Positions 490 through 22,145 of a stretch of DNA of 23,016 nucleotides are shown here, piece by piece. How positions within the stretch are numbered: the stretch's first letter is position 1; every line of letters starts with the position of its first letter. The DNA comes from a virus, in IMG/VR virus record IMGVR_UViG_3300025098_000309, positions 1 to 23,016 of that record. One strand, written 5' to 3'. A program made the position numbers and the translations under genes. Below the pieces are notes generated by a model that saw only the letters and a list, made by a program, of their open reading frames with translations, made no database searches and was not told where the DNA came from.

Positions 490-1071
490 CTACTTGACCA
501 TCTGTTGGGCAGCGATCTGTGTTTTTTTGACTCTGTTTCTAAAGCCGTTCTCGAAGTGTTTCCACGCCTCAATACGCTTGTAAAATGCCAGACGGTTCTC
601 AGAGAACTTCTTGATGAACTCTGTTTGATCCATTGCATTGATTGCCGCGACTGTCTTGGGTCCTATTAGACCATCAACTACTGTACCTGCCGTTTCTTGG
701 GCAATTTTCACACTGCGTCTGGGACCGCTGTGAACACTGAGATCGAAAAGTAAAAGGTCAGCACCGTCCACGAGTTCGTCTGCGCGTACTCGCGCCCAGT
801 ATCTGTCTTTATAGATTGGTGCCACGTCCTCGATAGTAAGGTTCTTTATGTCTTCTTTAGTGACCTCTCGTCCCACCCAGTTCTCATAGGTTTTCTTGGT
901 GACTCCAAAGTTAGTTGCGCCACCGTTATCTCGGGGATCATCAACGTAGCCCCCTTCTGACTTGAGTATCTGTGCTAGACACTCGATCCAGTTATCTTTC
1001 ATATTAATACATCCTATTGCAAAGGTTGGTTGGACAAAGAAAAAGAGGCAAAAGATAGCCAACCTCTTCAT
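490..1071 (-). CDS. Endolysin, GH108-type N-acetylmuramidase with N-terminal signal sequence
   Basis: This enzyme should hydrolyse peptidoglycan glycan strands to release progeny. After residue 30 the protein shows the hallmark SEGGYVDDPRDNGGATNFGVT of glycoside hydrolase family 108, with the expected catalytic glutamate at Glu39. A C-terminal region (roughly 110-190), with DGLIGPKTVAAIN and RLAFYKRI, fits the usual peptidoglycan-binding part. The length of 193 aa is normal for the family. Residues 4-20 are a hydrophobic segment after a Lys-Arg start, with Thr-Phe-Ala before Ile19. This reads as a cleavable signal or a signal-anchor-release sequence, so export could use the host Sec system. 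The start at 1071 overlaps the upstream stop as ATGA, implying coupling. A second in-frame ATG at 1002 (Met24) would give a form without the signal. It is the last gene of the operon, with a terminator downstream. Confidence 0.87.
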   Translation of the reverse strand: MKRLAIFCLFFFVQPTFAIGCINMKDNWIECLAQILKSEGGYVDDPRDNGGATNFGVTKKTYENWVGREVTKEDIKNLTIEDVAPIYKDRYWARVRADELVDGADLLLFDLSVHSGPRRSVKIAQETAGTVVDGLIGPKTVAAINAMDQTEFIKKFSENRLAFYKRIEAWKHFENGFRNRVKKTQIAAQQMVK

Positions 1072-2458: not shown

Positions 2459-4036
2459 TTATGTTGCTGTTTGGTATGTAATTTGTCCTATCATATTAAA
2501 AGAAGTTCCCAGATTAGTTCCTATAAGCGCGTACCAAGTTGTATTATCGCCAAGAGCATAAAATCTTAAATAGCTACTACTACTATTATATATAACAATC
2601 TGGGATCTAGACCCAGGAATGTCTACATTGTTATACATTACACTTCCTGAACCTTCTTGTACTGCATTAAAAGGTATCCCCCCTAAATTAAAGGTACTTC
2701 CGTTTGGACTAATTAAATTAGTAATTTCAAACTGAAGAGTAACCTGTCTGCCAATCTTTGTGTAAATACAATTAGCTGCCTCATGATTTAAACCTGATGC
2801 ACCTTGAGCAGCAGTAGGTGTCCAAGTCCCCTCTTCATAATCGTCAAGTGTATTGCTCGTTGCATTCCCTGCGACTGCATCAAAGACTACACCGCCTGAG
2901 AGGTAGAGGTCTTTATAACGATAATTAGTATGACCAAGATCAAGGGCGTTATCTAATATTGAACCATCTCTTAATGGAATAATACCATTTGTGTTAAATT
3001 GAATACCAGAATGTCCAGATGGGCCTTGAATATACACATCACCAAGAAATGACCCAATACTACCCACAGTGGAGCCGTCTTTGGCAAAATCAATTATGCT
3101 TCCATCACTACTTTGCCTATTTAATCTAACAGGGTTGCCACCATCTCTTGCTACTTCAAGAAAACCAATACTGCCACGAGCAACTATGCCAGTGTCAGAA
3201 GATGAAGTTCCTACTCCTACTGCCGCTGTGCCCACAAGCAAGTTACCGCTGCTTCTTTGTATTCTCATAGCCTCTGTAACAGTATCGTTTACTATTGTAG
3301 AAAAGACAGGATCACCAGTTGAGGGATCAAGACCTACATCAAGACCATAAGCCGCTGCACCAGAAGCCCTTTGAGTAACACGAAGTATTCCTAGTTTATT
3401 ACTACCACCAGAAATATCTAAATTAGCATCAGCGTCATTAACGCCAATCCCAACCGATCCGCTGCTGTTGATGGTAAGTCTGTTGAGGTTTCCAGAGCGT
3501 AGATTTAAAGTGTCGTCAGCGTTATTGTAGTTAATACCACCAATGTTTGTGTCAGCAGCATCGCCAAAATCAATAGCCGCTACAGAACTAGCCCCTGCTT
3601 GAATGTTCATTCCTGAAAAAGCAGTGCCAGTAACAGCTACACCAGTTGCGGTAGTCTCAAACTTAGATACGTTGTTATACCAAAGAGATACTTCTCCATC
3701 TTTGACAAACTGAGCCATTGTTTCAGCATTGTCAGAACTTTTAACATAAACCCCTGCATCACCTTGTAAAATTAATCCACCAGTACCTTGGTCTGCAATA
3801 CGGCTATTTGATCCATCATGGTAAATTTGTAGGTCATCATCATCACCCATGCGGATCTTATCGTTATCGCCCAAGTCCACCGTCTGTGCATCGGCACTGT
3901 CGATAGTTACTGTGGTTCCAGAGACACTCAAGTTCCCTGCTACAGACACATCACCACTTGCCGTGAGGTCATCGACGGTAAGTGTTCCTGCGATGTCCTT
4001 GTCTGCACTGTCTGCTAAATCTCGTGCTCTAGTCAT
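2459..4036 (-). CDS. Second tail fibre / receptor-binding protein (525 aa)
   Basis: The N-terminal part (about 1-70) reads DLADSADKDIAGTLTVDDL, then GDVSVAGNLSVSGTTVTIDS. This beta-strand lattice is typical of marine phage fibres. The middle (70-380) repeats short strand-turn motifs (IYHDGSNSRIADQGTGGLIL, RLTINSSGSVGIGV, AMRIQRSSGNLLVGT), several paralogous to the upstream fibre. The last 130 residues, after NTLDDYEEGTWTP, look like a globular beta-rich tip (LQFEITNLISPNGSTFNLG) that would bind the receptor. Unlike the upstream fibre it has no S74 chaperone. It overlaps that gene as TAATG, so the two are made together, perhaps as a branched fibre. The DNA from about 2460 to 3060 is visibly AT-richer than its surroundings, suggesting tip exchange. 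The host receptor cannot be inferred. Confidence 0.8.
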   Translation of the reverse strand: MTRARDLADSADKDIAGTLTVDDLTASGDVSVAGNLSVSGTTVTIDSADAQTVDLGDNDKIRMGDDDDLQIYHDGSNSRIADQGTGGLILQGDAGVYVKSSDNAETMAQFVKDGEVSLWYNNVSKFETTATGVAVTGTAFSGMNIQAGASSVAAIDFGDAADTNIGGINYNNADDTLNLRSGNLNRLTINSSGSVGIGVNDADANLDISGGSNKLGILRVTQRASGAAAYGLDVGLDPSTGDPVFSTIVNDTVTEAMRIQRSSGNLLVGTAAVGVGTSSSDTGIVARGSIGFLEVARDGGNPVRLNRQSSDGSIIDFAKDGSTVGSIGSFLGDVYIQGPSGHSGIQFNTNGIIPLRDGSILDNALDLGHTNYRYKDLYLSGGVVFDAVAGNATSNTLDDYEEGTWTPTAAQGASGLNHEAANCIYTKIGRQVTLQFEITNLISPNGSTFNLGGIPFNAVQEGSGSVMYNNVDIPGSRSQIVIYNSSSSYLRFYALGDNTTWYALIGTNLGTSFNMIGQITYQTAT

Positions 4037-6906
4037 TAGTTAGCCTCCAATGCTTCTAATCGTGTTGTCAAATCAGCTATCTGAGTTGCTTGGGTTGTAC
4101 TTTGAGTTTCTAATGTTTCAATCTTGGCTATTGCTTCTTGCAGTGCAGCCGTTAACAATGGCACTAGTTTGGATTGGTCAATACCTTGCATATCAGGAAC
4201 GCTGCGAGTTCCCATAACTACGGCTGTTGTTTCACGCCATTGTTGACCTTCTTCTAAAGTCTCAGGCTGCTCAACATTGCTGCTATGAATGACTTCATCA
4301 GTTGCCGCAGATACCTCATTACCTTCTTCATCAAGAACAGCGTCTGTGGCAGGGGTATACACATCACCTTTAGCTGCAGTAACCTCATATTCCTCATCTT
4401 TCATAGCGTCTTTTTCGCCAGTAACTGCTTCTGGAACTACTGTCGCAGCCTCGTGTGCTAAGAAGCCATCAACAGTTTTGTCTGCGTCTGCGATAAAGTT
4501 GAAGCGTTTAGGAGCTAATTGTTTAACTCTTGTGATGCCATCGGTGACATCTGTTACATTTTCTTTGAGGCGGTAGTCTGAAGAGGTAGCATAACTTGTT
4601 GATGTCCCACTTGTTTCTATTCTACCAACAGCGCCATTTCCGTTATAGAACTGTATTTGATATCTTGCTGAAGTTCCACTTCTGGAAAAACGCCTTTCTC
4701 CTGAGTCTGCACGTAAACCAATTCCATCAGCACTACCGTCAGGTAATGAAGTACATCCTATAAGAAAGTTGCCTGACGCGTCCAATCTTGCTCTTTCCGA
4801 GCCGTAAGTGAAGAACCTTTGAACATTGCTACCAGTCATAGCAATAAAAGTGTCAGTATCGTCTGTTCCTACAAAGTTACGTGCCATAACATTATTTGAC
4901 AGGAAGAGGTCTTTGAAACGTCTGCCGCCAGAGCCGCCAATATCAATAGCGTTGTCTCGATCTGCTCCAGTATTATTAGCAGGTGCTATCTGATTATTGC
5001 CAAAACGAATTAGGCTTTCATCAGGATTTCCAATATACACATCACCACCGTTAGACCCAATACTACCTATAGTACCATCCGCATTTTGCAGACGTATAAG
5101 TTCACCGTCATCATTTGAGCCAGAACCAATACGTTTTACAAACAAAGCCGTCTGTGAATCTGATGTAGTAGTAAGTGTGCCGTTTGCCCTAGCTTCCACA
5201 CCTGTATCAGCGTTGCCCAAAGAAGTTGTACCCACAAGTAAGTTACCGCTGCTGTCGATGCGCATGGCTTCTGAGAGTGATGTGTCAAACGCTGTTGAAA
5301 AAGTGAGAATGCCGTCATTTGCACCTGCACCTGCACCTACTTTAGTACCTGTGATTCTAGCTAGACTCCCGTTGCCATTTTCAAAATCTATGCTACCAAC
5401 ATTTTCACCTGCATTATAAAGTTTAAGGTAAGTTGTGTCTGAACTACTGTTAGTTGTCGCTTGTATTTCTAAAGGGCTATCAGGCGAAGTCGTCCCAATT
5501 CCAACGTTTCCAGAAGAATCAAGGGCAATCCTGTTAACACTTGCAGTTGCGTCCTGAATAAAAAGACTACCTGCTGAAGATGATACAAGAATTTTATAAT
5601 CTCTATCAACAGTACCACCTGCAGTACCTATTTGAATCCCTGCTGTAGCACCACCAGTTGTCGCAATGTGCAGTTCTTCACTAGGCGAACTCGTGCCAAT
5701 TCCAATTCGATCATTCGTAGCATCGAGCGTAACCCCTGCAGTCAACAAGTGTGCATCGACGTCACTGTCAGTATATCCTGCAGCTACTGCAGCCCATGCG
5801 TAATCTGAGCCGTTCCACTGTAGATACTGACCGCTAGTTGCAGAGGCTTGATTGAGGTGGAGGTCAACGTCACTGTTTGCATACCCTCCAGCTACAGTAT
5901 CCCACGCATAATCGGAACCGTTCCACTTAAGGTATTGACCGCTAGTAGCACTGGATTGGTTGAGGTGAGTGTCTACACTGCTATCTCCGTAGCCACTACC
6001 ACCGCCACCAAGCGGCTCAAACCGAGCGTCTGCTTGTGTCTTAGTGTAGTGGTCGGAATTAGTGAAAACAAAAGTACCAAAGGCAATGATGTCAATGATG
6101 TCTCCTGCAGCTGCACCGGATGCCAACACAATGTTAGTTCCTGAAGTCGCAGTGAAATCAGTACCGACTAAAAGTTTAACTCCATTGAGCCACACGTCTA
6201 CAAACCCTGCATCGTAAGTCACTGAAAATGTGGTTTGCCCTGCAGTCGCTACATATGTCTGTCTCTCACTTGTACCGTTGACTGATGATCCTGCGTTCAC
6301 CCAACCACCTGACGCATACACTTTTAGAGTATCTGATGCGGTGTCAAACCAAAGATCTCCTAGATCCAGAGCCGAACCGTCTGGGTCTTGTGTTGGTGCA
6401 GTTGCTGCAGCCCCTAGATACTGGTTTTGGAATGTTGCTAATGTAGATGCCGCTGAAGTAGCTGATGTAGCCGCATCAGTAACTGAGGTGCCTATAGCTG
6501 CCAAGTCTGCAGCCGCTGAAGCCGCTGATGCAGCCGCATTTGTGGCCTGAGTTGTTGATGTAAGCGCACTTAAAGCGGCATTTGTTGCTTCAGTATTCGC
6601 CGTAACAGCACTTGCAGCCGCATTATTAGCATGATTAAGCCCAGTTGAAGCGTGGGATGCTGCTTGTTGCGAAGATCCTAATGCAGCAACTTGTGCAGCC
6701 TCTGCAGCATTCTTAGATTGAGTTGCTGAAACATCTGCAGCATTTGCTGATGTAGCAGATGCAGCCGACGCAGCCGCTGATGAGGCACTATTAGTTGCTG
6801 AAGTTGCCGCATTTGTTTCGGAAGTAGCGGCCTGATTAACACTAGATTGGATTGCTGTACTGTTAGAACTAGGAATCCCAATCTGCGAATAGAATGATGA
6901 TGACAT
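4036..6906 (-). CDS. Tail fibre with C-terminal S74 intramolecular chaperone (956 aa)
   Basis: Residues 1-20 are the probable virion-attachment end. Residues 20-165 are Ala/Ser/Thr-rich heptads (long coiled coil). About 170-205 is a small domain with LDLGDLWFDTASDTLKVY, and about 215-300 a T7-fibre-like strand domain (VDVWLNGVKLLVGTDF). Then come two and a partial third copy of a 36-residue repeat, and beta-helical motifs such as RIGIGTSSPSEELHI. The C-terminal 180 residues are a peptidase S74 chaperone: SSDYRLKENV contains Ser776 and Lys781, the self-cleavage dyad, so cleavage is expected before Asp777 once the trimer has folded. The end (QSKLVPLLTAALQEAIAKIE) is a helical bundle. The start at 6906 uses the SD GGAGAT that encodes the last codons of the adaptor gene. 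The class is very secure; the receptor is unknown. Confidence 0.92.
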   Translation of the reverse strand: MSSSFYSQIGIPSSNSTAIQSSVNQAATSETNAATSATNSASSAAASAASATSANAADVSATQSKNAAEAAQVAALGSSQQAASHASTGLNHANNAAASAVTANTEATNAALSALTSTTQATNAAASAASAAADLAAIGTSVTDAATSATSAASTLATFQNQYLGAAATAPTQDPDGSALDLGDLWFDTASDTLKVYASGGWVNAGSSVNGTSERQTYVATAGQTTFSVTYDAGFVDVWLNGVKLLVGTDFTATSGTNIVLASGAAAGDIIDIIAFGTFVFTNSDHYTKTQADARFEPLGGGGSGYGDSSVDTHLNQSSATSGQYLKWNGSDYAWDTVAGGYANSDVDLHLNQASATSGQYLQWNGSDYAWAAVAAGYTDSDVDAHLLTAGVTLDATNDRIGIGTSSPSEELHIATTGGATAGIQIGTAGGTVDRDYKILVSSSAGSLFIQDATASVNRIALDSSGNVGIGTTSPDSPLEIQATTNSSSDTTYLKLYNAGENVGSIDFENGNGSLARITGTKVGAGAGANDGILTFSTAFDTSLSEAMRIDSSGNLLVGTTSLGNADTGVEARANGTLTTTSDSQTALFVKRIGSGSNDDGELIRLQNADGTIGSIGSNGGDVYIGNPDESLIRFGNNQIAPANNTGADRDNAIDIGGSGGRRFKDLFLSNNVMARNFVGTDDTDTFIAMTGSNVQRFFTYGSERARLDASGNFLIGCTSLPDGSADGIGLRADSGERRFSRSGTSARYQIQFYNGNGAVGRIETSGTSTSYATSSDYRLKENVTDVTDGITRVKQLAPKRFNFIADADKTVDGFLAHEAATVVPEAVTGEKDAMKDEEYEVTAAKGDVYTPATDAVLDEEGNEVSAATDEVIHSSNVEQPETLEEGQQWRETTAVVMGTRSVPDMQGIDQSKLVPLLTAALQEAIAKIETLETQSTTQATQIADLTTRLEALEAN
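5776..5991 (-). repeat. Two tandem 108-bp (36-residue) repeats inside the fibre gene
   Basis: Residues 306-341 and 342-377 are near-identical units with the core HLNQ-S/A-SATSGQYL-K/Q-WNGSDYAW. A truncated third unit (YTDSDVDAHL) follows at 5740-5775. Each unit is exactly 36 codons. Such repeats lengthen a fibre shaft and can change copy number by recombination. Confidence 0.8.
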
Positions 6907-20140: not shown

Positions 20141-22111
20141 CTACCTCCTACCTGTTACAATCACATCCACATCCATACCAGAGAACGAAAAGTCCTTCAG
20201 TGTAGGCAACGCTAGTTTGTAACTGAGGTATCTACCGGAGATGCGAGTGTTTACTTTATACGCTACGTTGGAGTCGAAAGTTACCGTGACATCATATGTT
20301 GGTGTAGCCGTTGGGATGTCGGCAGCGCCAAAAGTAAACTCAAAGTTACCATCTGAATTAGGTGTGTTCATCTGTGGGTAGAACGTATTGATCACTTTGT
20401 AGCCTGATAGCGGAGTCCCTTGTTCGTCCAGATCTATGCCTGTTCTCTCTAGGAAAGCAGGTTTACTGACGTCTGTGTCAGTTCCTTGTGTCAAAGATCC
20501 TAAGTCCTGCAGGTCTAGGCCGTACAAAGTAGAGCGTAGAACACCGCTTAGAGTGTTTTGTACTGTTATACTGTTTCCCATTCCTAAATGGTTTAGACAG
20601 CCGTATGAGACAGGGCCAACATCGTTTTGACCCATCGTTAAAATTACAGCGCCACCTGCATTTCCATTAGATCCTTGGAAAGTTACACCCACAGTGTAAG
20701 GAGCGCTAAGATTATCGTTGCCATCAAATAGACGGAATGGGTGTCCCATCATACTCGAGTCGCTGACATCGAATATATAGGTTTGACCTTTTTGTAATGT
20801 GAGTGTGGGCTGCTCGACACCATCGATATAAAAAGCATTGCTGCTTCCTGCACTAGTGTTTCCGGCACTTTTAGCTGCACGAGTTACAACAAATGTTATA
20901 GCTGGAAATGTCTTCTTGGAAAACATTACGGCATGGCGTTTGAACTCTGACTCTTGGCTTAAGTATGTACCGCCTGAGTTTGCATAAGTTATACTCGGAT
21001 CTACTGACGCGTAGGAAGTAACTGATTGAATGTTGGCAATACCACCACCTACTACATTAGGTAAATCTTGGAACGTCCAAGTGTCCTCTTTGTAGTTGTA
21101 GACGGCTGCTCGATTACACTTGTCTCCGTCTTCGAAAACAGCAAGGTCGTCGCCTGAGTGATAACAGAAGTAAACTTCTTCTAGGGCTGCATTATGCAAC
21201 ACAAAACACTGGCCCTTCTTGCTGTAGTCAATACCGTTGAAAATGTAGTCTCGGACCCGACCATCGCAAATAGACTGCCTAGAGTTTCCATCCGTGACGT
21301 AGATGTCATCGAAGTCGAACACATAGTGCTTGCCTGTCACTTCAACAATGCAGTTCTGGCTCATGGCACCTGCGTCATCAAAAAGTTTACGAAAGTTGAA
21401 TATGAACGAACCGCCTACAAACTCCATCATCCACACTTGGTCGGACGAATAGATCAAGAAGTTGGACCCTAAAGTGGCTCCGTCAACTATAGGTGTCTTC
21501 ATCTGTACGAGGTCATTGAAACCTGCAGACTCTGTCGTGTCTGTTTCATCCCATGTACTTGGTACTTGGTTCGACAGAGTGGTGGTACTAAAGCGTACCC
21601 TGTTTCTGTGATCGACACCGCCTTCTGTGGTGTTCAATGCAATCAGGAAGTCACCAAAAGATCTGATGGCTTTTGTTCTTAGCGTCGAGGGCCAGTTTGG
21701 TAGATCAGTGAAGTTATTAGCACCGCTAGTTCTGTGGACAGGTATCTTGTCACTTCTGTTTACATAGACGACGTTTGCTAAGTTAGTTGCTGTCAGTTCA
21801 GTCAGGTTCGATTGGACAGTCCCAGTGTGTCTCTGTGTATAAGATCCATTGCTGTACTCTTGTATTGTGAACTGATCGTCAACTACGAGAACAGTATCGT
21901 AGCCTGTGGATGACTCAATGCCATACACAAACATAGGATTGTCTACTTGGCTGTTGGGACTGGCGTCTCTGAAGACTGGGCCTGCGCTCACTTTGCCTTC
22001 GTTAAATCTAATGTTCTTGCCTCGGGTGAAGCCGTTGATCGGTAGGTTGTAGGGGTCAACGTCAGTGACCACACCTACAGACCCAAGTCCTCGGATTGGT
22101 AAGTTAGGCAC
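20141..22111 (-). CDS. Tail hub / stabilisation protein, P22 gp10-like, with cupredoxin-like insert (656 aa)
   Basis: It should close the portal-adaptor channel and carry the fibres. The N terminus PNLPIRGLGSVGVVTDVDPY leads into VRF-type strands and repeated beta-propeller-like units (IYSSDQVWMMEF, YVFDFDDIYVTDGN, VYNYKEDTWTFQDLPNVVGG), the usual pattern of phage stabilisation proteins. The C-terminal GIDLDEQGTPLSGYKVINTF and YKVNTRISGRYLSYKL also fit. Between about residues 400 and 520 lies a separate beta domain with a putative type-1 copper site (His457, Cys505, His508, Met511). The start chosen is GTG 22111, five bases after GGAGGAGG. An in-frame ATG at 22126 overlaps that SD and has none of its own; choosing it adds five residues. 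The stop is followed by the next gene after four bases. Confidence 0.85.
   Translation of the reverse strand: MPNLPIRGLGSVGVVTDVDPYNLPINGFTRGKNIRFNEGKVSAGPVFRDASPNSQVDNPMFVYGIESSTGYDTVLVVDDQFTIQEYSNGSYTQRHTGTVQSNLTELTATNLANVVYVNRSDKIPVHRTSGANNFTDLPNWPSTLRTKAIRSFGDFLIALNTTEGGVDHRNRVRFSTTTLSNQVPSTWDETDTTESAGFNDLVQMKTPIVDGATLGSNFLIYSSDQVWMMEFVGGSFIFNFRKLFDDAGAMSQNCIVEVTGKHYVFDFDDIYVTDGNSRQSICDGRVRDYIFNGIDYSKKGQCFVLHNAALEEVYFCYHSGDDLAVFEDGDKCNRAAVYNYKEDTWTFQDLPNVVGGGIANIQSVTSYASVDPSITYANSGGTYLSQESEFKRHAVMFSKKTFPAITFVVTRAAKSAGNTSAGSSNAFYIDGVEQPTLTLQKGQTYIFDVSDSSMMGHPFRLFDGNDNLSAPYTVGVTFQGSNGNAGGAVILTMGQNDVGPVSYGCLNHLGMGNSITVQNTLSGVLRSTLYGLDLQDLGSLTQGTDTDVSKPAFLERTGIDLDEQGTPLSGYKVINTFYPQMNTPNSDGNFEFTFGAADIPTATPTYDVTVTFDSNVAYKVNTRISGRYLSYKLALPTLKDFSFSGMDVDVIVTGRR
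20552..20914 (-). other. Cupredoxin-like domain inserted in the tail hub
   Basis: In hub residues 400-520, LTLQKGQTYIFDVSDSSMMG resembles the strand-turn-strand of cupredoxins before the first copper His. His457 is in GHPFRLF. Cys505, His508 and Met511 lie in YGCLNHLGMGNS, a C-x2-H-x2-M loop with the same ligand spacing as amicyanin. I recall similar GHPF ... C-x2-H-x2-M segments in marine phage tail proteins, so the domain type may recur. Copper binding is inferred from ligands and order only. The insert separates two hub segments (FKRHAVMFSK and GVLRSTLYGLDLQDLGSL) that are normally close. Confidence 0.6.
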
Positions 22112-22145
22112 TACACCCTCCTCCATCTATTGTTGATTGTTGGAC

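Follow-up and report, generated by a model that had tools for sequence, protein, structure and literature searches.

A Predicted Cupredoxin Module with a Conserved Type-1-like Metal Site in Phage Tail Proteins

Results

The Window Encodes a Short-Tail Nozzle Carrying an Insert

The window, by which we mean the whole stretch of viral DNA analysed here (23,016 nucleotides), is a 23-kb IMG/VR record of a marine bacteriophage, without a near relative among the 50,697 phage records searched. It contains the gene for a tail nozzle of 661 residues, whose features are listed below in the order of the protein.

20141..22126, minus strand: nozzle (hub) protein, 661 aa, carrying the cupredoxin insert (phrog_3287, PDB and SU10 gp17 matches)
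20921..22126, minus strand: nozzle N-terminal part, residues 1-402, ahead of the insert (83-88% identical to the insert-less L263-L265)
20963..21013, minus strand: Tyr372, Tyr381 and Tyr388, inferred fibre dock (aligned with the SU10 dock loop; invariant in alignment A8)
20558..20914, minus strand: inserted domain, predicted cupredoxin, residues about 405-523 (absent in close relatives; family HMM; AF2 fold)
20741..20743, minus strand: His462, candidate copper ligand 1, in GHPF (invariant in alignment A3)
20597..20599, minus strand: Cys510, candidate copper ligand 2, the only Cys of the domain (invariant in A3)
20588..20590, minus strand: His513, candidate copper ligand 3 (invariant in A3)
20579..20581, minus strand: Met516, candidate axial ligand (at least 90% conserved in A3)
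20141..20539, minus strand: nozzle C-terminal part, residues 530-661, past the insert (81-85% identical to L263-L265)

A preliminary description, made from the sequence alone, had called the protein a P22 gp10-like hub, which needs correction. The protein matches phrog_3287 with an E value of 9e-98, and phmmer searches against the PDB returned 9nwi_Y (E=3e-61), the 8zkm nozzle (E=4e-30) and the SU10 nozzle 7z47 (E=3e-24). Using hhalign, it could be aligned with SU10 gp17 (E=4e-21) up to the last residue, with a C-terminal GRR common to both. The hub is homologous to the SU10/T7-type tail nozzle along the propeller and the C-terminal platform, as judged by hhalign and the PDB nozzle chains, and on the strength of these matches it is better termed a nozzle of this type. 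The presence nearby of a portal (SU10_portal, PF23899) and an adaptor (SU10_adaptor, PF24175) is consistent with a short-tail nozzle. The full-length nozzle model reached a pLDDT of only 43, too poor to show the propeller fold or the position of the domain. Also on the minus strand are the genes for a long tail protein that ends in an S74 endosialidase chaperone (window 4036-6906) and for a GH108 muramidase that includes a peptidoglycan-binding domain (window 490-1071).

The same description had proposed that about 120 residues do not belong to the propeller-like fold of the hub, and this held. In the nozzles L263-L265, which are 83-88% identical to that of the window, the motif FKRHAxMxS joins the STxYGLD strand directly, so that the window nozzle has about 119 extra residues (405-523); a family HMM of the domain matches residues 411-522 with E=2e-36. 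In the L262 nozzle the two flanks are 88% and 82% identical to those of the window, whereas the copy of the domain at the same site is only 39% identical and nevertheless retains the His, Cys, His and Met. The domain is present in 7 of 85 nozzle ORFs examined. Three locus ids among these 7 repeat the sequence of the window itself, and L030/L031 and L073, also among them, are members of a different nozzle subfamily. L030 and L073 were misaligned in alignment A7, and alignment A5 (full nozzles plus isolated domains), which apparently misplaced the domain rows, was left out of the results. Close nozzles without the domain, together with the swapped copy in L262, argue that the insert is a module that is gained, lost or exchanged rather than a part of the propeller. 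The domain is thus a true insert, foreign to its host nozzle.

The Insert Is Predicted to Adopt a Cupredoxin Fold

We modelled the domain with AlphaFold2 using 53 natural relatives as input, which gave nine strands with a pLDDT of 87.6 and a pTM of 0.83. The best 50 PDB matches listed for this model were all cupredoxins or cupredoxin-domain proteins, headed by rusticyanin (E=5e-4, probability 1.00) and including amicyanin, pseudoazurin, plastocyanin, multicopper oxidases, copper nitrite reductase and factor Va, with Foldseek TM-scores that were moderate, only 0.4-0.5. At the sequence level, a 54-sequence profile run against all PDB sequences found first pseudoazurin (E=0.013), a copper oxidase and copper nitrite reductase, and hhalign of the domain with four plastocyanin-family proteins (E=8e-4) placed His on His and Cys/His on Cys/His.

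The window domain itself gave no match to Pfam PF00127 (Copper-bind) at E<=1 and is hence not assigned to that family, and typical copies are not recognised by Pfam or NCBIfam. Two bridges exceed the Copper-bind cut-off of 21.2 bits: the tail fibre of P-SSM2, whose second copy scores 23.3 bits, and L493, a Bacteroidetes protein whose C-terminus scores 32.3 bits and matches phage copies at 1e-19. Altogether, residues about 405-523 very probably form a cupredoxin fold (an all-beta Greek-key sandwich) with a selected metal site, where the fold is predicted by a model rather than solved and the convergence of the ligands is inferred.

The Candidate Ligands Are Kept or Abandoned Together

The segment GQTYIFDV ... 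GHPF ... CLNHLGM is present in the insert as first reported, but the residue numbers given for the ligands (457, 505, 508 and 511) were 5 too low; the correct residues are His462, Cys510, His513 and Met516. They stand in the order of a type-1 set, with Cys, His and Met in the last loop, and their spacing, CxxHxxM, is that of amicyanin. In alignment A3, which holds 54 diverged copies with a mean column identity of 43%, His462, Cys510 and His513 are the only invariant columns and Met516 is conserved to at least 90%; across the wider set of copies, Lys or Gln rarely takes the place of the Met.

Some of our search patterns covered CxxHxxM, and the first sample was therefore partly biased toward copies bearing the ligands. 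A second sample was drawn with a DNA pattern from another part of the domain, independent of the ligands; it favours one subfamily, and the columns under its pattern are conserved by construction. All four ligands were found in 92 of the 99 non-redundant copies of this sample, while each of the remaining 7 lacks three or four of them together. The loss of the Cys coincides with that of the second His (Fisher p=6e-9, a test that treats related copies as independent). When all copies were pooled, 171 of 181 had the complete set and single changes occurred only at the Met (to Lys or Gln). The copy of cyanophage PSS2 has lost His, Cys and His alike.

Copies that keep the strand signature with three or four ligands gone are L344, L454, L398, L420, L394, L409 and L444, and also L499, L501 and L014; such copies occur in structural proteins of the cultured cyanophages S-E7 and ACG-2014b and in PSS2 gp080. 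A separate set of 1181-residue proteins (L005-L010) has the axial Met replaced by Lys, with His, Cys and His kept and extra loops.

Ligands that are kept whole or abandoned whole behave as those of a metal site do, and the roughly 6-7% of copies without them indicate that some proteins can use the fold with no metal in it. Chance as the origin of the ligand pattern is ruled out by the invariant His/Cys/His and the joint loss. Exactly one Cys per domain is found in 53 of 54 copies, which rules out a disulfide inside the domain. The proposal of a cupredoxin-like domain hence stands as a prediction, resting on the AlphaFold2 model and its listed structure matches, and that of a blue-copper ligand set with an amicyanin-like short loop stands in order, spacing and strong conservation. 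Free loss of the ligands in copies that keep the fold, which would have refuted it, was not observed, the losses being rare and coordinated. There are no binding data, and copper binding in the virion, inferred from sequence and predicted fold, is likely.

The Insertion Point Adjoins the Inferred Fibre Dock

In SU10 (PMC9509320) the short tail fibre docks on a loop that sits away from the channel, at the edge of propeller blade 1, and contains Trp839, Trp847 and Trp857. In the profile alignment to SU10 gp17, the cupredoxin insertion falls about 14 residues after Trp857, and the residues aligned with the dock loop include Tyr372, Tyr381 and Tyr388, which are invariant in 23 relatives (A8). An insertion adjoining the equivalent of the dock loop suggests that the domain sticks out at the nozzle's outer edge, next to the fibre dock. 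We consider this exterior position likely, as an inference from the alignment.

The Domain Is a Mobile Module of Marine Phages

The suggestion that similar segments occur in other tail proteins of marine phages, as a mobile virion domain would, was confirmed. With a typical copy as the tblastn query, 212 of the 50,697 phage records gave a hit. By organism name these are Synechococcus, Cyanophage, Prochlorococcus, Pelagibacter, Methylophilales, marine or uncultured phages; no name of an enteric or Pseudomonas host appears among the 212. A scan of IMG/VR returned at least 600 rows. The domain is carried by tail fibres, baseplate proteins and gp9 fibre connectors, by nozzles and by other virion proteins, and some of these have it twice. 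In the gp9 connectors of Syn33, S-RIM2, S-RIM14 and S-BM1 the domain lies at the C-terminus with its His, Cys, His and Met intact. The domain is thus a mobile module of marine phages.

In genome assemblies the domain is rare (1 of 61 Prochlorococcus-family genomes, 2 of 99 genomes from a Bacteroidetes order); it turns up there in, among others, very large marine Bacteroidetes proteins and collagen-like marine Euryarchaeota proteins. A 189-kb contig from a Prochlorococcus single-cell genome, QCLS01000003.1, holds five copies in very large ORFs (L484, L503-L507), and may be a cyanophage genome caught with the cell. An origin of the module in the hosts is disfavoured, given that the single Prochlorococcus-family genome has its copies on this suspected cyanophage contig. 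Its rarity in the family and the suspected contig make the module look mainly viral.

In two Marine Group II Euryarchaeota proteins of about 340-400 residues (L477 and L479), a collagen-like Gly-x-y stretch is joined to a four-ligand copy at the C-terminus. The domain model also matches BFVD entries A0A481Z6J5, A0A481Z7Q7 and A0A481YVH3 (E about 1e-6 to 1e-7), which are 'beta-sandwich proteins' of 124-169 residues from pithovirus- and marseillevirus-like giant viruses. They could be free-standing viral cupredoxins, a possibility that rests on this match alone.

Discussion

Relation to Known Cupredoxins and Tail Proteins

Cupredoxins are electron carriers and oxidase domains of cells. With the small blue copper proteins that serve photosynthesis and respiration (amicyanin, pseudoazurin, rusticyanin, plastocyanin; PF00127) the window domain shares the predicted fold and the order His...Cys-x2-His-x2-Met, with the spacing of amicyanin. 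In contrast to these free-standing secreted or periplasmic electron carriers, it is an internal module of a 661-residue nozzle, and where plastocyanins have His-Asn it has His-Pro and falls below the Pfam cut-off. The His-Pro motif after the first ligand is common to the insert and the oxidase match, and the type-1 domains of multicopper oxidases and copper nitrite reductase match the insert in both profile and fold. Unlike those enzymes, the insert has by sequence neither a second copper site nor an oxidase signature.

The SU10 gp17 nozzle (7z47), homologous to that of the window along the propeller and C-terminus, likewise holds inserted beta-sandwich domains (PMC9509320). There, four Ig-like domains of the nozzle lie between blades 2 and 3, whereas the window has one cupredoxin past the fibre dock region. 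Phage-encoded cupredoxin folds are already familiar from cyanophages, which carry plastocyanin (petE) as a metabolic gene, but the petE product serves photosynthesis and is expressed in the host, without being part of a tail protein. Metal on a tail appendage has also been proposed for marine phages in the iron HxH sites of fibres (T4 gp37, Alteromonas phage R22Y; PMC11705849). Those sites hold iron between paired histidines of trimeric fibres, in contrast to the His-Cys-His-Met of a single cupredoxin domain.

A Proposed Docking Module and Its Alternatives

In the explanation that we prefer, the predicted cupredoxin with its intact type-1-like site is a mobile module seated in a loop that probably lies at the nozzle's outer edge, and it would pick up copper from outside after the virion leaves the cell. 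The copper-holding domain, rigid and exposed, would then serve docking or adhesion and help the nozzle to engage a fibre or the host surface during infection. The position beside the fibre dock and the location in gp9 suggest such a module at fibre joints. Against it stands the assembly of virions in a copper-scarce cytoplasm, which means that copper loading must come later. We give this explanation as a whole a probability of roughly 0.5. Copper loading, exposure and docking are all inferred; the docking role taken by itself falls a little short of being the probable one. None of the roles suggested at the outset (metal or redox sensing, stabilisation of the hub, receptor binding) has been established, and they survive as competing readings.

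The best surviving alternative is that of a structural brace, in which copper merely stiffens a small beta-sandwich, helping an exposed piece of the tail to endure outside the cell, and has no role in recognition. It is supported by the retention of the ligands while the domain diverges to 39% between near-identical nozzles, and by carriers that are structural tail proteins of several kinds. However, a tail domain can be stable without metal, as copies lacking the site exist and most phages rely on Ig-like domains that contain none; and a brace alone leaves the restriction to marine phages unexplained. We regard it as unlikely.

The domain could also be a copper bait, mimicking when loaded a copper-delivery protein and docking on an outer-membrane copper-uptake receptor of the host. 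This would be the copper counterpart of the iron 'Ferrojan horse' idea, in which iron-binding fibres are proposed to exploit siderophore receptors (PMC11705849), and the cupredoxin azurin has been reported to bind the TonB-dependent copper transporter OprC (PMC6907878). The azurin-OprC contact was, however, not reproduced with functional OprC (PMC8610252), the domain occurs in nozzles and gp9 connectors and not only in receptor-binding tips, and the window virus has no known host, leaving little to recommend the idea.

We hold still less confidence in a redox or metal sensor, whose site would change state at the cell surface and help to trigger the tail or release the fibre. The type-1 ligand set speaks for it, as does the location, next to the fibre dock inferred for the nozzle and at the end of the gp9 connectors. 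Against it, the window encodes no electron partner, the very different surface of the L262 copy (39%) is hard to square with a fixed partner interface, and the shape of cupredoxins changes little with redox state. Another metal such as zinc, or a non-metal reason for keeping the residues, is allowed by the absence of binding data and because sequence alone does not name the metal, but is no more probable than the sensor, given the joint ligand loss that fits a metal site, the amicyanin order and spacing with 50 listed structure matches that are all cupredoxins, and the single Cys that excludes a disulfide within the domain.

A bolder version of the preferred docking explanation, which we think unlikely, is that marine phages share an unrecognised family of copper-loaded tail cupredoxin modules in which copper is functionally required, with the loaded domain docking on host surface structures, possibly copper-uptake receptors. 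If this were true, adsorption would be copper-dependent and viruses would form part of the strongly bound copper of the ocean.

Significance

We found no description of a virion-borne cupredoxin domain in the titles and abstracts of the open-access literature searched. The predicted domain places a well-known fold in a new setting, on the virion, with a conserved type-1-like site common to many ocean phages and with copper binding as an inference. It also supplies a hypothesis of function for a domain whose typical copies escape Pfam and NCBIfam. A selected copper site in the tails of abundant ocean phages, the hosts of which are Synechococcus, Prochlorococcus, SAR11 and methylotrophs, would tie trace-metal chemistry to infection, and would set beside the iron 'Ferrojan horse' idea a concrete counterpart for another metal that is easy to test.
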